A DNA stretch of 44,753 nucleotides from Fibrobacterota bacterium. Its GTDB lineage: Bacteria; Fibrobacterota; Fibrobacteria; UBA11236. The translations under genes were made by a program, and so were the position numbers. Location of the stretch: the NCBI GenBank assembly GCA_028287505.1, contig JAQBPN010000126.1, forward strand, positions 1-44,753, written 5' to 3'. Under the pieces are notes generated by a model. The model made no database searches. It was not told the DNA's origin and worked only from the letters and a program-made list of their open reading frames with translations. Shown piece after piece: positions 27,917 to 34,288 of the stretch. The stretch's first letter is position 1, and the number at the start of each line of letters is the position of its first letter.

Positions 27917-28330
27917 TCAGCGGCCCGGACGGGTATAACCGACGATACGGACGCCGGTCGCCGATTCGGCGATGGGGATTCCGGCCGCTTCCAATGCCTG
28001 CCAGATGGCTGCGCGGACATCCGCCTTTTTGTCCTTCGGCGCCGCGCCGGCGGACCTGGCATTCAACTCCAGCCACTCGATGGAATTGTACAGCGGGATG
28101 TTTTCCGGGAACCCTTCGTTCCACCGGTCGGCGGGAGGATCTTCCGCGTCCGTGATGCCGCGGAACCGGAAGGAAGCCCGGTATCCCTCGATGCCCTGGA
28201 TGGCGTCGATGGCGGCCCGCCATTTGGTGCCGTTCATCTGCGTCGAAAGGCGGTTGCGGGACACGAAGCTTCGAAGGCGTTCGATTTCCTTCTTCTGCGC
28301 TTCCGTCAATTTGTCTTTTTGAACGCCCAT
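27917..28330 (-). CDS. Hypothetical protein, possibly DUF6678-like
   Basis: A 137-residue soluble protein with no signal peptide. The N-terminus is a basic/acidic helix (KDKLTEAQKKEIERLRSFVS), followed by NGTKWRAAIDAIQGIEGYRASFRF, an IEWLELNAR segment and a C-terminal block (DVRAAIWQALEAAGIPIAESATGVRIVGYTR). The NGTKW...IEWLEL pattern recalls DUF6678 proteins, but I am not certain of it. Start ATG 28330 has only a weak GGTGGT upstream. It is the last gene of the minus-strand run containing the three barrel genes, 25 bases after the last of them, so it may be co-transcribed. Function unknown. Confidence 0.65.
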   Translation of the reverse strand: MGVQKDKLTEAQKKEIERLRSFVSRNRLSTQMNGTKWRAAIDAIQGIEGYRASFRFRGITDAEDPPADRWNEGFPENIPLYNSIEWLELNARSAGAAPKDKKADVRAAIWQALEAAGIPIAESATGVRIVGYTRPGR

Positions 28331-28355: not shown

Positions 28356-29699
28356 TTAGAAGAAGAACCCAATCTTCCCGATCCAGTACCAATCGGTGGG
28401 CGCGATGAAAAAGGTTTCCCATTCGGATCCGGGTGCGGTTTGGGTACCGCTGGATCGACTATGGTCATTCGCGACTTGAGCGAGCAGTTGGACATGTCCG
28501 AAGGTCTTGGTGGCATGAAAGGCCCATTTCCAATCGTCGCGTTCCAGGTTCAAGTTGTGGGTATTGGGGACCGGTAAAGAGGATTGCCAAGCTCCGGAAG
28601 TGGATTGCAGGCGGGCCAAATCATCTTTGACCTTGGATCCGTACCATTCGACTTCCAGGGAAAGATGATCCAGGTAATTGAATACCGGGAAATTGAATCC
28701 GACCATGATGGGAATGCGCTCCGACATACCGCCATATAGCGCTTTATAGGGTTTGCTATAATCGAGACCGATCATGGCCACTTCCCCATACAGCTTCAGG
28801 TCATCGGGACCGAAGGCCGCGGCATCGAAAAACGCCTTGGGATCGAAGCTGAAGTCCGCCATGACCTTGGTGCCCTTGAAAGACATGTAGGTCGTATCCT
28901 GGGCCACCGAGTCCACATAAATCCTGGTACGGGAATTCGGATCGCCGGTGTAGTTGGTGAAATCGGAGCCGCTGTAGGAAACGGTGTCCGGGCTTGTGAG
29001 CTTGGGATCGATGGGGATCCAATGGTAAAGGTTCACTCCGGCGCCGAGGCGCAGACCCTTACCGATATTCACGTTCGCGATGTAGGCGGGGGAAAAATCG
29101 AAAAAGGGGAAGTTTTCGGTCTCGGTTCCCAGGATCAAATTCTGCTCGAAGGGACCGCTGATGTGCTGCAATCGGATCCCCGCTGTATTGGAATTCGGCG
29201 AGGTGTACTTCGAATCGTACCCGGAAACAAGCACGCCGGGGTAAACCGGACCGCGCAACAGGTACAATCCCAAATCCTTCACATCCGGATTGTAAGCGTA
29301 TGGGAAATAACCTCCGGTCAAAGCCAGGGTTTTATCTTCGGTCTTCCAGAAGGTGTACTTGAAATTCGCATTGACCATGAAGGGCGTCCAGATGAACGGG
29401 ATCCTTCCGCCGCTTTCATTGAGGCGGCCGGAGGGATAATGGCGATCCACTATCCCCAGCCCTGCGGAGACCAGTAGATGCTCCCCGAAGCGCGCGTCCA
29501 TGCCGAACTTGGCGGAGATGTTCTGGATGCGGTTCCTGCTGTAATGCATCGAGGACGTATCACTCGATTGCATGATCTCGCCCATCCCGACGGTAGCGCC
29601 ACCCTTGAACGTCATGTCCTGGGCCTTGGGTCCGCCGAGGCACAGCGCCAAGGCTGCGCAAGTCGTGGTCACCGTGGCCTGAAGTTGGAAATGCCTCAT
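28356..29699 (-). CDS. Putative outer-membrane beta-barrel protein, paralog A
   Basis: A 447-residue protein with a signal peptide (cleavage after about PKAQ) and alternating hydrophobic beta strands, ending in KIGFFF, the terminal aromatic signal of outer-membrane barrels. It shares with its two upstream neighbours the blocks YNPDVKDLGLYLLRGPVYPG, RIPIMVGFNFPVFNYLDHLSLEVEWY, DDWKWAF and ANDHSR, so all three derive from one ancestor. I do not recognise the family; no ligand-binding or enzymatic motif is visible. Start ATG 29699 begins at the signal peptide; the frame extends farther upstream without one. It lies 17 bases after paralog B, in one operon. Porin-like or structural roles are guesses. 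Confidence 0.82.
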   Translation of the reverse strand: MRHFQLQATVTTTCAALALCLGGPKAQDMTFKGGATVGMGEIMQSSDTSSMHYSRNRIQNISAKFGMDARFGEHLLVSAGLGIVDRHYPSGRLNESGGRIPFIWTPFMVNANFKYTFWKTEDKTLALTGGYFPYAYNPDVKDLGLYLLRGPVYPGVLVSGYDSKYTSPNSNTAGIRLQHISGPFEQNLILGTETENFPFFDFSPAYIANVNIGKGLRLGAGVNLYHWIPIDPKLTSPDTVSYSGSDFTNYTGDPNSRTRIYVDSVAQDTTYMSFKGTKVMADFSFDPKAFFDAAAFGPDDLKLYGEVAMIGLDYSKPYKALYGGMSERIPIMVGFNFPVFNYLDHLSLEVEWYGSKVKDDLARLQSTSGAWQSSLPVPNTHNLNLERDDWKWAFHATKTFGHVQLLAQVANDHSRSSGTQTAPGSEWETFFIAPTDWYWIGKIGFFF

Positions 29700-29716
29700 G
29701 TTATTACCGCAGTTCC

Positions 29717-31075
29717 CTAGAAAAAGTAAGTCGTCTTGAGCATCCAATACCAATCCTTGGGGGAGAGCATGGTTTCGGCATAAGACATGAATCCGATATC
29801 CGGAGGGCCGAACATGCGCAGGTGATCATCCGCAACCTGCCCCGACAAACGCAAATGCCCCAGTACGACCTTGGAAAAGTACACGGACCATTTCCAATCA
29901 TTCCGGCTGTTTTCCACATCGGGTACGGGACGCGGAACCCAGGAGTAATCCAGCTCCGCCTTACCGTAGTCCAGGAAGTACTTGGCGGCGTAGTATTCCA
30001 CCTCCACATCAAGCTTATCCAACCAGCCATAAGTCGGAAGGTTGAGGCCGACCATGACAGGCATGCGGCGTTTGATATCGTCGTAATATTTCGGATAGTC
30101 TTTCAGGCCCAATACGGCGAGTTCGCCGTACAGGACCCAATCTTCCTTGCCGAATTGGGATCCGAGGCCAAAGGTGACTTTCGGATCCCAGCGGAAACGC
30201 GCCATCAATTTGGTTCCGGCCATCGATCCGTATATGGTATCCACTTTCGCCGTATGCGCCACCGTATCCACCGAGATGGTGTCTTGTATGAAGCACACTT
30301 CGTCATCGGCGTTGTCGATTTGCGAATAGTTACGGGCTTCGTTAAGGCAAGGCTGCCTGGGAGATACGTTGTTTTTGATCCGGGGCAACACCCGGTAAAG
30401 GTTGATGCCGGTACCGAGCTGGAAAGACGGCGTAGCCTGCCAGGAAACCACGTCCGCGACCGACCAGTCGAAGTAGGGGCGGTTTTCGGTTTCCGAGATC
30501 AAAAGCAAATCATTCTTGAGTCCGCCCAGGGAATAGCTGAACATGCTGCCGAAGATGTTGGCCGCGGGCGTAGTGCCGCGGGCCTCGAAGCCCGACACGG
30601 GCGTACCGGGATACACGTAACCGCGCAGCAAGTAAAGGCCCAGGTCCTTCACCTCGGGATTGTAGTCGTAGGGAAAGAAACCCAAGTTCAATTGGAATTT
30701 CTGGTTGTCCGCGATCGGCAGGGTATAGGTAACGCGCGCTTCGCCCATGAAAGTGGACCAGGTGGGATACCAATTGTTGGCCACACTGACGTCTCCGCGC
30801 GCATTCTCGGATTGCAAGGCGCCCATGGCCATTGCGCCTTCCCAATTGGGTCCGAACTTGGCCGTGGACGCGACCTGGACGCCCATGGCCTGGATCCAAT
30901 TGCCGTCCATATTATTCGACTCACCGCCATTGACGAATGGGTACGACGCTTTCATCACCCTGCCGAATTGTAACCAAGCCGCGCCTTTATACTTCACCAC
31001 CGCGGAATCCTGTGCGGCGGCCAGGGCGGGCAGGAGCATTGCGAAGAGGATGTGATGCTCAAGCTTCAGTTTCAT
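29717..31075 (-). CDS. Putative outer-membrane beta-barrel protein, paralog B
   Basis: A 452-residue protein, signal peptide MKLKLEHHILFAMLLPALAAAQ, ending in LKTTYFF. It shares YNPEVKDLGLYLLRGYVYPG, RMPVMVGLNLPTYGWLDKLDVEVEYYAAKY, NDWKWS and ADDH with paralogs A and C. Differences from A and C are concentrated in the middle, where it has a Cys pair (QPCLNEARNYSQIDNADDEVC) predicted to lie in an extracellular loop and perhaps to form a disulfide. Start ATG 31075 has GGGGAA about 8 bases upstream. Spaced 20 bases after paralog C and 17 before paralog A. Family unknown. Confidence 0.82.
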   Translation of the reverse strand: MKLKLEHHILFAMLLPALAAAQDSAVVKYKGAAWLQFGRVMKASYPFVNGGESNNMDGNWIQAMGVQVASTAKFGPNWEGAMAMGALQSENARGDVSVANNWYPTWSTFMGEARVTYTLPIADNQKFQLNLGFFPYDYNPEVKDLGLYLLRGYVYPGTPVSGFEARGTTPAANIFGSMFSYSLGGLKNDLLLISETENRPYFDWSVADVVSWQATPSFQLGTGINLYRVLPRIKNNVSPRQPCLNEARNYSQIDNADDEVCFIQDTISVDTVAHTAKVDTIYGSMAGTKLMARFRWDPKVTFGLGSQFGKEDWVLYGELAVLGLKDYPKYYDDIKRRMPVMVGLNLPTYGWLDKLDVEVEYYAAKYFLDYGKAELDYSWVPRPVPDVENSRNDWKWSVYFSKVVLGHLRLSGQVADDHLRMFGPPDIGFMSYAETMLSPKDWYWMLKTTYFF

Positions 31076-31095
31076 GCTCAATTCCCCATCCCGCC

Positions 31096-32616
31096 TTAAA
31101 AGAAATACCCGATGCGAGCCATGAAATACCAATCCTTGGTGGATGTCAAAACCTCCGACAGACCGGAAGATTCATTGATCAATCCGCTGCGCACCGGACG
31201 GGGGATAAAATGATCATTGGCGATTTGCCCGCTGAATTGGACATGGCGCGCGAAGGTTTTCTCGACATTGAGGGACCACTTCCAATCATCGGCCGTGAAA
31301 TTCTCGGGATCGAGGGACGTGCCTTTGACGTGAATCGTGTCGCCGGTCTGGATTTCGTACAGGTTTCCGTCGGGAGTGACTTGGTAACGGGTGCCGCCTG
31401 TGTTGGCGAGATCAACCAAGGAGACCGGGAGGGCGGAGGGGGCGCTTTGCGCGATTAAAGGGGGTGCTGCGATATTCTTGAAGTAAAGCGAGCGATCGAA
31501 GCCGAGTTTACTGTAGTCGGGCCTGTACTTCGCGGTATAATGCTCAACTTCCATGGAAAAAAAATCCAGCAGGCCGAAAGTGGGAAAGTTGAATCCCAAC
31601 ATCACCGGTATGCGGTCCTTGCGATTGGCGTAAATGGAGCCGTAATTCTTCACGCCCACCAACGCGCCTTCGCCATAGAGGATCAGGTCTTTGGCGCCGA
31701 ACGGTCCCGAGAGACCCAGCAGATTCTTGATGTCCAAATTGAACATGGCCATCAGCTTGGTGCCCTGGTGGGTATAGAACACCGTATCACCCGGCGCCAT
31801 CACCTCCATGTATTGCAATTGATAGGGGTCGACTTTCCCGCCCGCCGCAATCAGGGCGGAGTCTTTTTGGTACAGGGCGAAATCCTGGGCGAACAAGGCG
31901 GGAGCGTTTTTGGTGGTCGGGGAGGTGATTTTCGCGTTATCCGGAATCAAGTGGTAGAAGTTGACCCCCGCGCCGATTTCCAGGGCGTTGAAGGCTTTAT
32001 ACTTGGCCACGTATCCCAAGCTCCAATCGAAGCTGGGCGGCAAATCGCGTTCATCGTAGAGCACCAGGTCCTGTTGGAAATTGCCCAGGCCGTTGTGCAG
32101 ATGCAGGCCCAAAAAGGTCGCATGGGTGGTGTCCGTATGGAATTCCTTGAATCCGGAAACCAGCAGTCCGGGATATACCGGACCGCGGAAAAGGTAAAGG
32201 CCGAGATTCTTGACCTGCGGATTGTAATTGTACGCGAAATCGCCGACCGTAGCACTGAACAGGGGATTCGGCTTCTCGCCCAATGTATAAGTGACGCGCG
32301 CATCGGAGACATAGTTGAAGAATTTGGAAAGCGTGAATTTTTCCGAGGTGGCATTGCCCAAGGAATGGTACACCTGAGTCAGGCCGAACCCGAATCCGCC
32401 TTCGAAATTGTCGCCCAGATTGGCGATGCCGTAAATCTGCATGCCCATGGTCTGTTGCCAATTGCCATTGAAATTCGTGACCAGGGTATCGGTGGAATTC
32501 ATGACGCGGCCGAAGTCATTCCAGGTTTTGGCATGCAGGTCGACGGAAACCGCATTGCTGCTGACGGGACTAGCGCATAATATGAAGGCCGCCAGCAGGG
32601 AAAACGGTTTGGTCAT
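31096..32616 (-). CDS. Putative outer-membrane beta-barrel protein, paralog C
   Basis: A 506-residue protein, signal peptide MTKPFSLLAAFILCASPVSSNA, ending in ARIGYFF. It shares YNPQVKNLGLYLFRGPVYPG, RIPVMLGFNFPTFGLLDFFSMEVEHYTAKY, DDWKWS and ANDHF with paralogs A and B, and FGRVMNSTDTLV near the N-terminus with FGRVMKASYPFV of B. It is the longest of the three because of a longer region before the DWKWS block (rich in Pro, Ala and Thr). Start ATG 32616 has GGGAG 9 bases upstream; the open frame continues 69 codons further but without supporting signals. First gene of the three-gene barrel operon. Function unknown. Confidence 0.82.
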   Translation of the reverse strand: MTKPFSLLAAFILCASPVSSNAVSVDLHAKTWNDFGRVMNSTDTLVTNFNGNWQQTMGMQIYGIANLGDNFEGGFGFGLTQVYHSLGNATSEKFTLSKFFNYVSDARVTYTLGEKPNPLFSATVGDFAYNYNPQVKNLGLYLFRGPVYPGLLVSGFKEFHTDTTHATFLGLHLHNGLGNFQQDLVLYDERDLPPSFDWSLGYVAKYKAFNALEIGAGVNFYHLIPDNAKITSPTTKNAPALFAQDFALYQKDSALIAAGGKVDPYQLQYMEVMAPGDTVFYTHQGTKLMAMFNLDIKNLLGLSGPFGAKDLILYGEGALVGVKNYGSIYANRKDRIPVMLGFNFPTFGLLDFFSMEVEHYTAKYRPDYSKLGFDRSLYFKNIAAPPLIAQSAPSALPVSLVDLANTGGTRYQVTPDGNLYEIQTGDTIHVKGTSLDPENFTADDWKWSLNVEKTFARHVQFSGQIANDHFIPRPVRSGLINESSGLSEVLTSTKDWYFMARIGYFF

Positions 32617-33088
32617 AACTAAAGCTCCCGCGGGAACAAGCCCGTTTGGGCAAAGATAATGCAAGGCTGATCGGTTGTAAAGTTTCAGTAGTGGATTTAT
32701 GAATCCCACGTCTACAGATGAAAGTGCGATTTTGCTTTGTACACAAGTAACGTTTCGCATCAAATATGCAGCGGTCCGATTCGATTTATTGATGCGAGAA
32801 TAATCAATCGAATTTGTTCGCACAAGAACATCGGAGTGCGGCTCTTGGAAAATGCTGTCAACGGTTCTGGTGACGAAAAGACTGAATAGCCGGGGTCACG
32901 TGCTATTCGATTGTCTTCGGCAAGTATGTCATCAATTAGATCCGAATGCAATCGGGAAATCTAAGGGCGGAATATCCGGATTACACCTTTATCATGACCA
33001 GGATTTAAGGAGCCGGCCTTTCGGCCGACTTGATTGAGTTTTCAGAACTCTCGCCGTTCTGCATGCTACGGCTCATGGCGAGGGTTGC
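32617..33088. other. 472-base gap without a convincing gene
   Basis: This stretch upstream of paralog C is clearly more A+T-rich than the window. It should hold the promoter of the barrel operon; on the minus strand TTTACA and TTATCT 16 bases apart (about 32682-32655) are a weak candidate. Two small palindromes, GCCCGTTTGGGC (32640-32651) and CCCGCGGG, lie in the predicted leader. An imperfect hairpin AGCCGGCC/GGCCGACT near 33012 follows the DUF1080 gene. Short ORFs here look non-coding. Confidence 0.5.
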
Positions 33089-34288
33089 TCAAATGCGGCT
33101 GAAGCGAATATGCTCCGTGCCGAGATGGCCCTTCAGCTCCACGACCAATACGCCCGTGGCGGGTGTGGTGAGCGTGTGATTCAAATTGCCGGAATCGCTG
33201 TGGAAGCGTTCCAGAACGTGGCCGCGCACATCCGTCACGCTCACATCGTAGGCCGCCCCCAGAGTCCCGGAAAGAACTCCGTTGGACAGGGTCAGCTTGG
33301 GTTTGGCAAACGTCATTCGGGATTGTTCAACCGAGGTCGGATCTTCGCTCTCTACCGGTACGAGCGGACCAGTTATGGGCGTACCGTCGGCCTTCAATGG
33401 GCGGACTTTTATCCTTTTGTATGCGGACCAAGTGCCCTGGTTCCAGCGGCCGCCGCCGTGTACCTGTAAGCCGATAGGACCGGCGGGAGTGACTTGCGGC
33501 AGGGTTTTCCCATATAGGGGGACCCAGGGAAGCGTGTTGGCCTTGCGGGTGAAGGTTTCCATCGTCACGCTGGTGCCTGCGGTGAGGCCGCCGTAGAACT
33601 TGACGCGCATCGTATTCCATCCGTTGACGTCCCAAATCTTCGGGAAGTCGGTAGCGACGCAGCCGCCTGCCGTGCAGCCGTAGGTAGTCGGACCCGGAGT
33701 CAGGCCCGCGGTGAATGTGGTCCAAGTTTTTATCGTCACACTGGAAGCAGCCCCCCCGAAAAGGTAGGGGTCATCGTTCAGGTTTCCGGAGGTCCAACCG
33801 TTTTCATTGAAGCTACCGCCCACGCTGCTGCCTGCGATGTAGTCGATGGTGGATTGCCAGCAAGAGCCACGCGCGGTGGTACGGTTGAATACGCCGCCGT
33901 CATTGCCGAAGGTGGGCCACACATCCAATATGATTTCGTAGTTGTCATAGATCTTGTTGGTGACGACAATGCCGCCGCTCTTGTTGTCTTCGCTGGAGTA
34001 CAGCAAGTGTTGAACGGAATCGGCGAACCACAGCGCGCCATTGGTGCCCGCGCTGGTATGACCCGTCTGGCAATCCTTCCACCAGCCGGTCAGATCTTTG
34101 CCGTTGAATATGGAGACGAATCCTTCCGCATCCGGAGCTGCGACAACGGTGTCCGGCGCACTCCCGTTCATTTTGGGGCCGGTCGGACAGGCTACGTTGG
34201 CCGGCACCTTCGTAGGCGCAGGAACCTGAGCCAAGGCGACTCCCGTCAAAACCAAAACGCAGGCGGTATTGATCAAAATGCTTTTCAT
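33089..34288 (-). CDS. Secreted DUF1080 (3-keto-disaccharide hydrolase-like) protein with sorting-type C-terminus
   Basis: A 399-residue exported protein. The signal peptide is MKSILINTACVLVLTGVALAQ. Residues about 55-300 match DUF1080/PF06439, a concanavalin-like fold: FVSIFNGKDLTGWWKD, IVVTNKIYDNYEIILDVWPTFGNDGGVFNR, WNTMRVKFYGG, PIGLQVHGGGRWNQGTWSAYKRIKVRPL. Members act on or bind modified sugars (3-keto-glycosides) or polysaccharides. The last 80 residues (GVLSGTLGAAYDVSVTDVRGHVL ... GVLVVELKGHLGTEHIRFSRI) resemble the C-terminal sorting domains of type IX secretion, so the protein may be exported to the cell surface. Start ATG 34288 has AAGGGAA 6 bases upstream. Substrate unknown. Confidence 0.87.
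   Translation of the reverse strand: MKSILINTACVLVLTGVALAQVPAPTKVPANVACPTGPKMNGSAPDTVVAAPDAEGFVSIFNGKDLTGWWKDCQTGHTSAGTNGALWFADSVQHLLYSSEDNKSGGIVVTNKIYDNYEIILDVWPTFGNDGGVFNRTTARGSCWQSTIDYIAGSSVGGSFNENGWTSGNLNDDPYLFGGAASSVTIKTWTTFTAGLTPGPTTYGCTAGGCVATDFPKIWDVNGWNTMRVKFYGGLTAGTSVTMETFTRKANTLPWVPLYGKTLPQVTPAGPIGLQVHGGGRWNQGTWSAYKRIKVRPLKADGTPITGPLVPVESEDPTSVEQSRMTFAKPKLTLSNGVLSGTLGAAYDVSVTDVRGHVLERFHSDSGNLNHTLTTPATGVLVVELKGHLGTEHIRFSRI

Follow-up and report, generated by a model that had tools for sequence, protein, structure and literature searches.

Ordered triplets of predicted porin-fold genes beside a sugar-enzyme gene in Fibrobacterota: a candidate outer-membrane sugar-uptake module

Three tandem barrel genes in a 44,753-nucleotide stretch of a Fibrobacterota genome (contig JAQBPN010000126.1 of assembly GCA_028287505.1; this whole stretch is hereafter called the window) form, together with a neighbouring gene encoding a PF06439 sugar enzyme, a fixed gene unit, and the co-location of their relatives with sugar-enzyme genes was likewise computed here. 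The three barrels, designated alpha, beta and gamma for positions 1 to 3, represent separate old lineages, each specific to its position, and are passed on together. Neither the sequence family nor the dedicated triplet-plus-enzyme unit is described in the databases and the mostly open-access literature searched, and the fold is a known one. Taken as a whole, the explanation towards which the balance tips slightly is that the locus constitutes a four-gene outer-membrane sugar-uptake module with an alpha-beta-gamma heterotrimer. The features of the locus are collected in Table 1. A preliminary description of this DNA had missed both the inheritance of the lineages as a set and the participation of the sugar enzyme in the unit.

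Table 1. Features of the triplet locus, in positions of the window
Feature	Coordinates	Strand	Description
PF06439 (DUF1080, 3-keto-disaccharide hydrolase) gene	33089-34288	minus	First gene of unit; Pfam
T9SS type A-like tail of PF06439 protein	33092-33301	minus	C-terminal; TIGR04183 below cut-off
Leader, PF06439 gene to alpha	32617-33088	minus	472 bases
Alpha porin (C)	31096-32616	minus	506 aa; position 1; 16-strand model; position-1 clade
Beta porin (B)	29717-31075	minus	Position 2; family profile match; position-2 clade
Gamma porin (A)	28356-29699	minus	447 aa; position 3; 16-strand model; position-3 clade
Gamma segment 134-170, motif YNPDVKDLGLYLLRGPVYPG	29190-29300	minus	Strands 5-6; modelled at the place of porin L3

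Transcription runs from C through B to A, with spacers of 20 bases (C/B) and 17 bases (B/A), just as the preliminary description had read the open reading frames and gaps. The long blocks that it had seen shared among the paralogs reflect homology and not chance, since pairwise BLASTP revealed 35% identity between A and B (E 3e-78) and 34% between B and C (E 6e-83); the motifs it named belong to the best-conserved columns of the family alignment, and a C-terminal FF is indeed present in A, B and C. Identity between triplet positions is 36-37%. Beta scored E 3e-166 against the family profile, in which B itself is included, and is homologous along its whole length to its sister paralogs, the fold models being those of gamma and alpha. 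No sequence match beyond sub-threshold noise was found for A, B or C in Pfam, NCBIfam or the PDB, and no known porin family gave a profile match to them (Pfam and NCBIfam, E up to 1). Weak Pfam matches of B to Fructosamin_kin and Gp_dh_N were rejected, since they fall below the cut-off and the barrel fold speaks against them. Directly downstream of gamma lies a DUF6678 gene (27917-28330, minus strand), a homolog of which is likewise found at locus L082.

The earlier proposal of outer-membrane barrels belonging to an undescribed family agrees with these searches and with structure prediction. AlphaFold2 models, built from input alignments of 74 (gamma) and 71 (alpha) sequences, presented 16 long strands in both proteins, with a pLDDT of 89 and a pTM of 0.88 for gamma and a pLDDT of 88 and a pTM of 0.88 for alpha, and neither modelled barrel had a separate N-terminal plug domain. 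When compared with solved structures, gamma reached best Z scores of 19.6 (Omp35) and 19.5 (OmpM1), and the best porin match of alpha reached 20.1; the top fold matches were porins, namely OmpM1, Omp35, OprB, OmpF/OmpC and OmpK36. OmpM1, Omp35, OprB, OmpF and OmpK36 are known, from PDB titles or as general background, to be trimers. That these barrels have a porin fold, which was computed here from the predicted models of alpha and gamma, is almost certain. The most conserved block of the family, YNPDVKDLGLYLLRGPVYPG, sits in the long segment that links strand 5 to strand 6. This segment, residues 134-170 of gamma, presented the lowest column entropy of all regions, with Y136 and G144 invariant, and in the model it appears to occupy the place of the porin constriction loop L3.

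Arrays of barrel genes were mapped in genomes G000-G010, and alpha-beta-gamma triplets were counted in family f1 (G000-G009), in which 24 triplets of constant order and strand were found in 10 genomes. Two triplets split by contig ends and one with a frameshift are the sole apparent exceptions, and no orphan alpha, beta or gamma was found in the 10 genomes, one decayed locus apart. In this decayed locus of the window type (L079, G001 contig 232, 3172-5669), the PF06439 gene is intact, and all that comes after it is a truncated gamma carrying an internal stop. In maximum-likelihood trees (99 and 163 sequences), position, rather than locus or genome, determined how the barrel genes clustered: position changes on the tree numbered 4, 5 and 3 for positions 1, 2 and 3, versus shuffled means of 20-22 (0/500 shuffles), and the leftover changes trace to the type-4 beta, to labels at contig ends and to one separate array. 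The triplets fall into at least four types: that of the window, two found on contig 35, and the contig 89/78 type. Since the genes cluster by position, the three lineages split before the triplet multiplied into these types. The type-4 beta branches apart from the rest of the betas, though support for this is modest, and a single origin of beta is therefore likely but short of certain.

Another triplet, the C95 type, is carried by 7 genomes of two families; it was derived separately and is composed of its own ordered lineages. A third (L072) was found in an Alinen sediment assembly. Many barrel units in the mapped arrays are pairs or singles, so that three genes are not obligatory in the barrel family; the pairs are likewise ordered, with the first and second genes representing separate lineages.

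The neighbour that had been described as secreted and sugar-related was confirmed to be a PF06439 protein, which matched positions 1-187 of the 187 in the Pfam profile at E 3.3e-13 and 50.5 bits (cut-off 26.8) and which, like other neighbour enzymes, carries a signal peptide as judged by eye. Neighbour-gene clustering revealed a PF06439 homolog directly upstream, on the same strand, in 23/23 triplets with upstream DNA, and another PF06439 gene precedes the C95-type triplets wherever upstream DNA is present (6/6). Barrel pairs mostly adjoin ThuA genes, and the remaining units adjoin genes for PF06439 proteins, PQQ glucose/sorbosone dehydrogenase (GSDH) or GH20 enzymes. Ordered pairs beside ThuA, a two-gene counterpart of the triplet, were seen at L025, L084, L097, L102, L106, L117 and others. 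All 14 barrel units of the source genome adjoin PF06439, ThuA, PQQ glucose-dehydrogenase/GSDH or GH20 genes. With a background of about 31 PF06439 and about 21 ThuA genes among about 5000, the binomial probability of enzyme adjacency in at least 12 of the 14 units is about 1e-19. Moreover, barrels were found in 19 of the 21 PF06439-bearing Fibrobacterota genomes versus 15 of the 147 others (Fisher p 6e-14, which is no real probability because the genomes are related). The PF06439 gene and the barrels very probably make up one functional unit. PQQ-type glucose/sorbosone dehydrogenase genes lie beside barrels at L023 (10450-12006), L034 (1713-3437) and L110 (6253-8004); it is suggested that sugar oxidation, at the surface or in the periplasm, accompanies these porins. 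PF06439 members are known as 3-ketoglycoside hydrolases, BT2157 acting on 3-ketotrehalose and CCNA_01705 being proposed for 3'-ketolactose (PMC9007349); members of the family are also xanthan-related glycosidases (PMC5673643).

The C-terminal tail of the PF06439 protein of the window shows the typical pattern of a type A sorting domain. TIGR04183 matched it at E 0.12 and 12.3 bits, and the tails of its relatives at E 0.0009-0.0069 and up to 19.2 bits, all under the 23-bit cut-off; against a tail profile of its own genome it scored E 1.4e-16, the window tail being included in that profile. Such sub-cut-off tails being common, the T9SS cargo of Fibrobacterota may be under-annotated. SprA, the T9SS translocon, is encoded in the source genome, and T9SS-like tails were found on nearly all enzymes whose genes adjoin barrels. 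Both observations would fit a reading in which the barrels are outer-membrane partners that secrete or anchor the adjoining cargo, as PorP/SprF-like proteins serve type B T9SS cargo in Bacteroidota. This reading is nevertheless improbable: PF11751 did not match A, B or C (Pfam, E up to 1), the tails are type A-like and not type B, the predicted fold is that of diffusion porins, and the tail profile matches 91 places in the source genome (G000), only about 14 of which, all of sugar-enzyme type, adjoin barrels. In the sugar-uptake explanation, the tail would probably place the PF06439 protein on the cell surface. Another PF06439 protein, CCNA_01705, is proposed to be periplasmic (PMC9007349), a location that would change the surface-enzyme step of the mechanism set out below.

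The preliminary description had also raised the possibility of an acquired or expanded locus and called for the family to be counted. Expansion was evident, since the source genome (6.07 Mb, 130 contigs) harbors about 27 copies of the barrel family, mapped by searches and fetched stretches, in arrays of one to three genes, with two triplets side by side on contig 35. Every member of the genus and of the sister genus presented 13 to 45 matches. Barrel relatives were found in 34 of 168 Fibrobacterota genomes, four of them only weakly (E 1e-8 to 1e-5). The Fibrobacteraceae-like f3 genomes are nearly all without a barrel match. A collection scan used a closer subset of the own-genome paralogs, all 26 aligned being too diverse, and the named records that it matched are Fibrobacteres/Fibrobacteria, Chitinispirillaceae and a few 'Fibrobacter sp.' metagenome assemblies. 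That the array is recently acquired or antigenically varying is very unlikely. The paralogs are numerous and the three-gene stretch is, as had been noticed, less G+C-rich (0.544 versus 0.619 in the rest of the window), but mildly low GC is common to most triplets of other genomes, the same triplet lies between the same flanking genes in three genus-mates, position-matched orthologs are close (best 60-73% identity), and the tree shows no sign of exchange between positions; on the grounds of synteny and the trees of orthologs, recent acquisition was rejected.

The leader between the PF06439 gene and alpha is longer here than in the orthologous loci L082, L094 and L101, where it measures about 60-100 bases. 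It is a single copy in the genome, on which ground a repeated element was rejected; it had no Rfam match, and a promoter scan gave no excess over shuffles. A promoter or some element of regulation may lie within the leader.

The proposed mechanism would begin with the signal peptide taking the PF06439 enzyme over the inner membrane and the T9SS-like tail probably putting it on the cell surface, where it would bind or cleave (3-keto-)glycosides. The alpha, beta and gamma barrels, expressed from one tightly spaced gene set, would allow the products to diffuse to the periplasm via pores narrowed by the conserved strand 5-6 segment. They would most likely join 1:1:1 as one heterotrimer, each lineage being specialised for one place, and the set would have multiplied as a unit into types serving different substrates. 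A role in sugar uptake is reasonably likely, and both the substrate and the passive nature of the uptake are inferred.

The chances that the three barrels form a heterotrimer, rather than three homotrimers, seem about evenly poised. The heterotrimer is suggested because every triplet has all of its members, duplication has left their order unchanged and a set of three evolved more than once; confidence goes no further because pairs and singles are common and the residue-level interface test is unspecific. Divergence between paralogs is greater at the outward positions of strands 1-5 and 16 than at other outward positions (0.49 versus 0.31, p 6e-4), and inward positions behave likewise (0.47 versus 0.28). 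This was not taken to prove interface specialisation, since inward faces change as well as outward ones and the interface is not singled out. Outward-residue hydrophobicity is 1.1-1.6 in strands 1-7 versus 1.9-3.7 in strands 8-16; the less hydrophobic face is as expected of a subunit interface there, with which it is compatible.

Alternatively, and this we hold possible but somewhat doubtful, the triplet may encode three separate homotrimeric porins of differing selectivity, whose genes stay together in one operon to match the several products that the enzyme releases. Homotrimers are the usual form of known general porins, the positions share only 36-37% identity, barrel pairs and singles exist, and divergence between the paralogs peaks in loops 226-275 and 353-389, as changes in selectivity would predict. 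These peaks also bear out part of the earlier claim that the paralogs differ mainly in the middle; the other part did not stand, strands 1-5 being nearly as divergent as these loops, and divergence is lowest in strands 10-13 and the strand 5-6 segment. However, separate homotrimers leave unexplained why no member was lost or reordered in 24 triplets, why the order is constant across at least four triplet types, and why a second triplet arose separately. In a poorly studied Fibrobacterota branch, dozens of undescribed outer-membrane pores are inherited in fixed groups of three sister genes, immediately after the gene of a sugar-cutting enzyme that is probably on the cell surface, and this suggests that the three proteins may together form a single three-part sugar-uptake pore. 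Porin trimers are normally three identical copies from one gene; if the reading is true, a lineage whose three sister genes have stayed in strict order through repeated duplication would exemplify how, in nature, an outer-membrane homomer can become a dedicated heteromer. A likely role, the uptake of products of a surface enzyme, would also be assigned to a large unnamed barrel family in Fibrobacterota outside the genus Fibrobacter, and PF06439 proteins, ThuA and PQQ dehydrogenases would be linked to a dedicated outer-membrane step.

Among known systems, the modelled barrels resemble the general trimeric porins (OmpF/OmpC/OmpK36, OprB, OmpM1) in their 16 strands (Z about 18-20), the long strand 5-6 segment at the place of L3 and the C-terminal aromatic residue. 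Unlike these, they lack a match to Pfam porin models, share 7-13% identity with them in structural alignments, and have their genes arranged in ordered paralog triplets or pairs next to a sugar-enzyme gene. OmpC and OmpF of E. coli, encoded at separate loci, homotrimerise as well as mix. Their heterotrimers bring different porin chains within one trimer (PMC5056734). In E. coli two porins mix, whereas in the system of the window three dedicated lineages are inherited together, and no dedicated heterotrimeric-porin operon was found in the open-access literature searched, where papers on heterotrimers concern E. coli OmpC/OmpF or mention them in passing. The neighbour enzymes are members of PF06439 or ThuA, like the PF06439 3-ketoglycoside hydrolases (BT2157, CCNA_01705) and ThuA themselves, and the available text of PMC9007349, which proposes CCNA_01705 as periplasmic, describes no dedicated porin set. 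With respect to transporters, no Pfam match to a TonB-dependent transporter plug or barrel was found in A, B or C. The SusC/SusD systems of Bacteroidota, which occur as numerous paralogous units, pair the gene of an outer-membrane transporter with that of a glycan protein at the surface. The loci described here likewise repeat as paralogous units in which barrel genes adjoin the gene of a putative surface glycan protein, and differ in having a porin-type barrel without a TonB plug or SusD domain match in Pfam. We tentatively propose, at rather less than even confidence, that an obligate heterotrimeric porin arose at least twice and multiplied together with a surface sugar enzyme, as a T9SS-coupled, TonB-independent counterpart of SusCD.
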